DNA from: Bacteriovorax sp. Seq25_V
GTDB lineage: Bacteria > Bdellovibrionota > Bacteriovoracia > Bacteriovoracales > Bacteriovoracaceae
NCBI RefSeq assembly: GCF_000447795.1
Contig: NZ_AUNI01000017.1
Span: 62,001 to 126,000, forward strand
Length of the DNA: 64,000 bases
Reading direction: 5' to 3'
Of the stretch, positions 52,998 to 53,698 are shown one piece after another (position 1 is the first letter of the stretch; each line of letters opens with the position of its first letter). The position numbers were made by a program, and so were the translations under genes. The notes beneath the pieces are model-generated. The model saw only the letters and a list, made by a program, of their open reading frames with translations. It searched no databases and was not told the DNA's origin.

Positions 52998-53085
52998 TTC
53001 GAGTTCAATTTCTGATCTCACAATTAAAATGGATCAATAATTTCTGATAATTAGAAGCCTGAGTAATTGCGCGTTCTTGCATAGA

Positions 53086-53169
53086 AACCTCATGAAATTC
53101 GCCATTCTTCTTTGCCCCCAATGAAGGGGACCTTATCAAAGGAGAAATCATGGACGAATTCATGAGGTT
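53086..53169 (+). promoter_or_regulatory. leader/start-codon pairing, copy 1
   Basis: AACCTCATGAA (53086-53096) is complementary to TTCATGAGGTT (53159-53169), codons 4-7 of the small gene. After one bulged A, TTCG (98-101) pairs with CGAA (155-158), for 15 pairs in all. The Shine-Dalgarno and ATG (53139-53152) are held in the closed loop. This arrangement is common to type I toxin messages, where it delays translation. Confidence 0.65.
53114..53131 (+). other. leader hairpin inside the pairing loop, copy 1
   Basis: CCCC (53116-53119) and GGGG (53126-53129) pair around AATGAA, with an outer G-C (53114-53131) across one mismatch. The second copy has different bases that still pair. Confidence 0.5.
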
Positions 53170-53233
53170 CTTAAAATTTCTAGTTCTAATTCTTCAGCTT
53201 TTGCTGTTGATATTAGAGCGTAGAAAGTTTTAG
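53150..53233 (+). CDS. 27-residue hydrophobic small protein, copy 1 (candidate type I toxin)
   Basis: The ATG at 53150 follows AAAGGAG by 5 bases. The peptide begins MDEFMRFLKF and continues as a Leu/Ile-rich single helix of about 16 residues, ending ERRKF, which fits a membrane-inserting peptide. A near-copy lies 364 bp downstream (22 of 27 residues identical, four synonymous changes among the differences). The leader can hide the start, and an intrinsic terminator follows. The gene stands alone. Other possibilities are a leader peptide or a regulatory membrane microprotein. Confidence 0.72.
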   Translation: MDEFMRFLKFLVLILQLLLLILERRKF

Positions 53234-53240
53234 GGTAATA

Positions 53241-53270
53241 GAGGTGATGTAACCGCATCACCTCTTCCTT
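53241..53270 (+). terminator. intrinsic terminator after small gene copy 1
   Basis: GAGGTGATG (53241-53249) pairs with CATCACCTC (53256-53264) around TAACCG, followed by TTCCTT, a weak T tract. The stem is identical in copy 2, whereas the loop differs. Confidence 0.75.
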
Positions 53271-53275
53271 ATGTA

Positions 53276-53304
53276 ACTTTATCAGTTTTGAAAATTGGAT
53301 GCAA
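53276..53304 (-). promoter_or_regulatory. candidate antisense promoter, copy 1
   Basis: On the minus strand, TTGCAT (53304-53299) is followed by 17 bp and TAAAGT (53281-53276). It would start an RNA near the terminator stem that reads through the whole small gene in antisense. The second copy has a matching promoter at the same offset. Confidence 0.55.
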
Positions 53305-53313
53305 TTAATTTTG

Positions 53314-53335
53314 AAAAGGTTCCTGGACACCTTTT
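53314..53335. repeat. 22-bp element with AAAAGG/CCTTTT-type arms, copy 1
   Basis: AAAAGGTTCCTGGACACC and the following TTTT form a near-inverted repeat. A variant lies at the same distance (50 bases) past the second terminator. It is 10 bp upstream of the antisense -35. It could be an operator, or a weak hairpin terminator. Confidence 0.5.
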
Positions 53336-53450
53336 AAGTGTTGTGACATCAGAATTTGAACTTTGAAAATACAAAATTGAATACGGTTAAATATTAGATG
53401 AATGAAAATAGGAAGTTATAGAAAAGTAAAGAAAACCTAAATTGCATAGA

Positions 53451-53533
53451 AACCTCATGAAATTCTCCATTCTTCTTTGTCACAATGATGTGACCTTTTA
53501 CAAAGAGGAAATCATGGACGAATTCATGAGGTT
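53451..53533 (+). promoter_or_regulatory. leader/start-codon pairing, copy 2
   Basis: AACCTCATGAA (53451-53461) is complementary to TTCATGAGGTT (53523-53533), exactly as in copy 1. The start codon (53514) and the Shine-Dalgarno lie in the loop. Confidence 0.65.
53479..53494 (+). other. leader hairpin inside the pairing loop, copy 2
   Basis: GTCAC (53479-53483) and GTGAC (53490-53494) pair around AATGAT. The loop matches copy 1 but the stem bases differ, with pairing maintained. Confidence 0.5.
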
Positions 53534-53597
53534 CTTAAAGTTTCTAATTTTAGTTCTTCAGCTTTTGCTGTGGATACTAGAAGTTAGAAATTTTTAA
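53514..53597 (+). CDS. 27-residue hydrophobic small protein, copy 2 (candidate type I toxin)
   Basis: The ATG at 53514 has GAGG 6 bases upstream. The peptide starts with the same first eleven residues as copy 1, has Trp20 in the helix and ends EVRNF. Differences are conservative in the helix (V12I, I14V) and larger at the tail. Downstream comes an intrinsic terminator and a convergent psd gene, whose read-through would also give antisense RNA. Confidence 0.72.
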   Translation: MDEFMRFLKFLILVLQLLLWILEVRNF

Positions 53598-53604
53598 GGT
53601 AATA

Positions 53605-53634
53605 GAGGTGATGTTCGCGCATCACCTCTTCCTT
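53605..53634 (+). terminator. intrinsic terminator after small gene copy 2
   Basis: GAGGTGATG (53605-53613) pairs with CATCACCTC (53620-53628) around TTCGCG, followed by TTCCTT. Confidence 0.75.
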
Positions 53635-53639
53635 ATGAA

Positions 53640-53668
53640 ATATTATCACTAATGGATTTTTGGATCAA
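53640..53668 (-). promoter_or_regulatory. candidate antisense promoter, copy 2
   Basis: On the minus strand, TTGATC (53668-53663) is followed by 17 bp and TAATAT (53645-53640), a good sigma70 match. Its -10 starts 12 bp past the terminator stem, as in copy 1. Confidence 0.6.
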
Positions 53669-53675
53669 ACCTTTT

Positions 53676-53698
53676 AAAAAAGGTTCCAGGAGACTTTT
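53676..53698. repeat. 22-bp element, copy 2
   Basis: AAAAAAGGTTCCAGGAGACTT and the following TT match copy 1 except in the centre and one arm base. It lies just past the stop of psd and 10 bp upstream of the antisense -35. Confidence 0.5.

Follow-up and report, generated by a model that had tools for sequence, protein, structure and literature searches.

The toxin mRNA of hok/sok is kept inert by pairing of its two ends and is activated by processing, and the system has an upstream reading frame, mok; txpA/RatA and bsrG/SR4 are convergent pairs in which the antisense RNA overlaps the 3′ end of the toxin mRNA. AapA/IsoA, found in Helicobacter and Campylobacter, combines a short toxic peptide, several chromosomal copies, and a cis antisense RNA, and its full-length mRNA is inert for translation through a 5′-3′ long-distance interaction and successive hairpins that mask the Shine-Dalgarno sequence (PMC6733600). 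According to one account (PMC4147584), the antitoxins of TisB/IstR-1, ShoB/OhsC, Zor/Orz, and DinQ/AgrB target a long 5′ UTR and leave the coding sequence free of overlap. A 2025 paper describing a cyanobacterial case states that all type I systems known until then came from Proteobacteria, Firmicutes, and Tenericutes (PMC12390103); a search of the open-access literature found no type I system for Bacteriovorax or Bdellovibrio.

The window, a 64,000-nucleotide stretch of the genome of Bacteriovorax sp. Seq25_V, carries two candidate type I units in an intergenic gap flanked by an Exo_endo_phos gene and by a phosphatidylserine decarboxylase gene in convergent orientation. Direct repeats of 216 and 38 nt, spaced by 364-365 bp, define the two units, which match throughout from leader to 27-codon reading frame, hairpin, tail, and palindromic element; we thus recovered both the repeats and the two 27-residue frames, 364 bp apart, of the original prediction. 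Both leaders begin TTGCATAG. In unit 1 the leader (53078-53149, plus strand) holds the 5′ arm (53086-53105) of a start-sequestering helix, an apical hairpin CCCC-AATGAA-GGGG (53116-53129), and a CCTT/AAGG hairpin over the Shine-Dalgarno sequence (53131-53142); it is followed on the same strand by ORF1 (53150-53233, stop included), encoding the 27 amino acids MDEFMRFLKFLVLILQLLLLILERRKF and folding through codons 8-27 into hairpin P4, by hairpin P5 (53240-53265), and by the tail CCTTATG (53267-53273), which pairs with codons 4-8 (weakly in this unit) or with the 5′ end. Unit 2 has its plus-strand leader at 53442-53513 (5′ arm 53451-53470; apical hairpin TCAC-AATGAT-GTGA, 53480-53493), ORF2 at 53514-53597, stop included, encoding the 27 amino acids MDEFMRFLKFLILVLQLLLWILEVRNF, P5 at 53604-53629, and the tail CCTTATG at 53631-53637, which pairs with TTCATGAGG of its own frame. 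The 20-nt leader arms are 80-85% complementary to the start region at both units (53150-53169 in unit 1, 53514-53533 in unit 2), bearing out the proposal that each leader pairs with its own start. The proposed intrinsic terminator fared less well: the P5 hairpin is real and covaries, but has no U-tract at either unit and is not called by a terminator scan. Because P5 lacks a U-tract in this class of units, the 3′ end of the mRNA is uncertain.

Across relatives the encoded peptide is a hydrophobic single helix of 24-30 residues, and the pattern ME(E/D)xxRVLxLxxLLLQL recurs in different genera. The ratio dN/dS is 0.26 over 241 close pairs, which share members and are not independent; substitutions are concentrated at third positions, and the start codon, Shine-Dalgarno sequence, and stop are conserved. 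Judged from this pattern, the reading frame is under purifying selection as a protein, the opposite of the random substitution that would have counted against the original prediction; nor did we meet the repeat routinely without its frame, which is kept in nearly all relatives and lost to frameshift, missing start, or deletion in a handful of decayed copies whose RNA is still recognizable (L075_1082, L156, L167, L170, L179, L183, and L184). The peptide, which the original prediction did not recognize, matches no Pfam, NCBIfam, or PADLOC profile, scoring 11.5 bits against a cut-off of 38 with the TisB family profile (NCBIfam TIGR04459), and the unit matches nothing in Rfam, whose covariance models, curated type I antitoxins included, found only a tRNA in the whole window at gathering score.

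The predicted RNAs of about 200 nt fold with z-scores of -10.2 (unit 1) and -9.1 (unit 2), none of 200 shuffles being as stable. The leader base-pairs across the start codon and the ribosome-binding site, the reading frame folds on itself, and a third hairpin follows. Helix covariation among 36 sequences is 0.436 versus 0.206±0.009 when shuffled and at most 0.141 when slid, and since the structure was drawn from one of the 36, the shuffle and swap controls carry more weight than the slides. Beyond the third hairpin, the tail (CACCTNATN) is paired to codons 4-8 and prefers its own partner: the pairing scores 18.7 versus 14.8±0.39 with partners swapped (0 of 500 swaps), and 19.7 versus 14.9±0.52 in 29 hold-out loci; likewise, leader and start score 21.3 together versus 18.4±0.32 for leaders with other starts. 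By computation the Shine-Dalgarno sequence and start codon are about 80% paired in the full-length RNA, and their accessibility, low in that RNA, rises mostly upon removal of the leader. The toxin mRNA is thus predicted to be folded so that its translation start is blocked.

The leader's apical loop, CAATGA(A/T)G, is nearly invariant in all classes while its stem covaries freely, and the loop itself may be recognized by something. Upstream of the sense RNA we saw no obvious promoter of the sigma-70 type, and a sigma-54-like promoter, tried by eye, fails on the window copies. An inverted motif, TTTCA-n3-7-(T/C)GAA, occurs in the roughly 110 nt that precede 17 of 100 units (for example, upstream of the leaders of L054, L063, and L058), with 0.7 expected from shuffles, an excess that may partly reflect shared ancestry among related loci; it is possibly an operator or an element of the sense promoter.

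Directly past the tail, on the reverse strand, lies an extended -10 promoter, and units with this layout, including both in the window, form class I. At unit 1 the promoter spans 53276-53304 (-35 TTGCAT at 53299-53304, -10 TAAAGT at 53276-53281), and at unit 2 it spans 53640-53668 (-35 TTGATC at 53663-53668, -10 TAATAT at 53640-53645), with a 17-nt spacer and a TG before the -10 in each case; transcription is predicted to begin near 53269 and 53633, in agreement with the positions 53270 and 53634 proposed beforehand. The promoter is conserved in position and strand across genera, and on that strand only, with a mean score of 9.86 versus 8.19 in shuffled sequence and 7.73 when the opposite strand of those regions is scored, and 10.65 versus 8.23 in hold-out loci. 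The support is comparative, a stricter consensus scan having listed neither window site, and no terminator was found for the predicted RNA. From this promoter conservation we infer a class I antisense RNA.

Class II comprises thirteen loci of the same toxin, one of them in the window's own genus (G005), in which the class I antisense promoter is absent. Here a short gene of about 65-79 nt lies upstream of the leader on the opposite strand, divergently oriented, with a TGnTAnnnT element of the extended -10 kind and an intrinsic terminator, and its predicted transcript is complementary to codons ~4-9 and to a segment after the stop, that is, to both flanks of the ORF hairpin. For the nine RNAs in which promoter and terminator were both placed automatically, mean duplex energy is -23.7 with the cognate mRNA versus -11.0 with non-cognate mRNAs, and all nine rank their own mRNA first; two of the thirteen loci (L082 and L085) have no exact match longer than 9 nt, a length that shuffles also reach. 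The upstream gene is a clear candidate for an antitoxin RNA gene. At another locus in G005, L171, we found no tail of the usual kind and no clear RNA upstream, and left it outside both classes.

The original prediction held that the unit was duplicated as a whole, which stands, and described two copies, to which the genome adds others: it has three further close copies, five in all, and a diverged sixth, all four additional copies being on another contig (C21). In the sixth, the leader/start helix is preserved through compensatory changes (AACCTTGTTAATTCC with GGAATTAACAAGGTT). That copy (L017 1586-1675; G000:C21 ~124085-124175) also retains its RNA fold and a frame of 27 codons, yet reads ATA at the start instead of ATG, suggesting either a dead toxin or a non-standard start. 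A covariance model built from these six copies recovered full-length relatives in 37 of 129 Bacteriovoracaceae genomes (E up to 1); a second, built from 36 sequences, extended this, at a cut-off of E 0.01, to 42 of the 129 genomes and 17 of 48 genera; the best match reached 1e-39, and about 35 of the 42 had a match below 1e-6, so that the proposed covariance search did find relatives. Several genomes have four to ten copies, often in tandem; in one (L054; G031:C24 1-6500), four tandem units adjoin HTH_3 (HigA-like) genes, suggesting a toxin-antitoxin island.

We were unable to trace the family further. Among 240 genomes of the same phylum outside Bacteriovoracaceae there were three weak model matches (E 0.003-0.008), which were rejected as the number expected by chance, and plasmid, phage, and viral-contig searches gave no match. 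When 84,980 species were scanned with a degenerate DNA pattern, almost all of the records found came from Bacteriovoracaceae/Halobacteriovoraceae, among them Halobacteriovorax marinus 36_234_T64 and a Bacteriovorax stolpii assembly; matches in Bacteroidales, Abditibacteriota, Eubacterium, Aureibaculum, and Akkermansiaceae had no RNA-model match and were treated as chance, and a weak match to model R1 (L089) was set aside because its peptide is unconvincing. On these searches the toxin family was found only in Bacteriovoracaceae.

Each window unit is followed by a REP-like element without strand, the palindrome AAAAGGTTCCTGGACACCTTTT (53314-53335) past unit 1 and AAAAGGTTCCAGGAGACTTTT (53678-53698) past unit 2. 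The 22-bp element (AAAAGGTKCCWGG) was correctly placed at the end of the duplicated unit by the original prediction, but is not confined to it, being a REP-like sequence also found elsewhere. It is rare in most family genomes checked; the window genome has three exact copies, each of them at a toxin unit, and of 101 units examined 20 have the element in the 200 nt that follow. Several copies elsewhere adjoin IS200-like (Y1_Tnp) transposase genes (e.g., in G136, G117, G067, and G129). The only Y1_Tnp/IS200-like gene in the window genome (L016 984-1481; G000:C21 ~202183-202680) is about 160 bp upstream of a toxin copy, and in Halobacteriovorax G092 a Y1_Tnp gene is about 275 bp from one. G067 has 51 exact REP-like copies, often as inverted pairs (e.g., in C245 and C317), versus 0-11 in the other genomes checked. 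The element may have helped spread or duplicate the toxin unit.

How does this family compare with the systems described above? i) As in hok/sok, the mRNA appears to be inert by end pairing and would be activated by processing, but the units lack a conserved upstream frame of the mok kind and encode a peptide about half as long; ii) as in txpA/RatA and bsrG/SR4, the predicted class I antisense RNA starts beyond the 3′ end of the toxin mRNA and overlaps it, but reads on into the ORF; iii) like TisB/IstR-1, ShoB/OhsC, Zor/Orz, and DinQ/AgrB, class II combines a predicted antitoxin RNA, encoded upstream and divergently, with a hydrophobic peptide that is similarly short and with leader processing as the likely trigger, but the RNA would target codons ~4-9 and the post-stop segment; and iv) AapA/IsoA (PMC6733600), compared by architecture only, is closest in its working, with several copies and an inert full-length mRNA whose ends pair, but in Bacteriovoracaceae the tail pairs with codons 4-8 rather than the Shine-Dalgarno sequence, the 5′ leader is the main block on the start, and antisense transcription would start from a promoter beyond the mRNA tail.

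A conserved peptide and a sequestered start do not by themselves imply toxicity, and the product might instead be a small regulatory or structural membrane protein whose start is controlled by RNA, for example in a thermosensor-like manner; we consider this unlikely given predicted dedicated antisense RNA genes in two layouts, together with tandem, multi-copy, patchy distribution and decayed copies, all typical of type I modules. The extreme stability of the fold, the REP-like neighbours, and the copy with ATA for ATG would also suit a structured non-coding RNA or mobile repeat with an incidental frame, an explanation that becomes highly improbable in light of the dN/dS value, the conserved start, Shine-Dalgarno sequence, and stop, and a peptide pattern kept across genera. 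It is scarcely credible that the units regulate a neighbouring gene in cis, as its leader or attenuator, for although the window units lie in an intergenic gap, copies adjoin different genes in different orientations. With a selected frame, a conserved opposing promoter, and a homologous subclass that has a clear candidate antitoxin RNA gene, the type I interpretation was right in substance, and we put at about 0.85 the probability that the units are type I toxin-antitoxin modules of a family not described before, in which the peptide would be toxic and an antisense RNA would be made. It is also probable, if less firmly so, that homologous toxin mRNAs of this Bdellovibrionota family are controlled in two ways, some by a cis-antisense RNA in convergent layout and others by a divergent RNA of about 70 nt that clamps both flanks of the ORF hairpin, in modules perhaps spread with the help of REP/RAYT elements.

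In such a type I module, a sense RNA of about 200 nt would encode a single-helix hydrophobic peptide of 24-30 residues that most likely inserts into the inner membrane and disturbs it. The full-length mRNA would be largely untranslatable, with the leader covering the Shine-Dalgarno sequence and start codon, a small hairpin additionally holding the Shine-Dalgarno sequence, and the 3′ tail bound to codons 4-8, until the start is freed by processing that probably acts on the 5′ leader and may also act on the tail. In class I, a sigma-70-type promoter past the tail would start an antisense RNA that runs back through P5 and the ORF and neutralizes the mRNA by forming a duplex with it; in class II, the divergent upstream RNA would bind the two mRNA segments flanking the coding-sequence hairpin.

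The family belongs to relatives of known bacterial predators and is absent from Rfam, Pfam, NCBIfam, and PADLOC. The class II layout points to a mode of action in which a small RNA bridges a hairpin within the coding sequence, and of this we found no description in the portions of the review literature consulted. One toxin with two kinds of RNA antitoxin would offer a natural comparison, through which the origin and switching of type I antitoxins may become testable.
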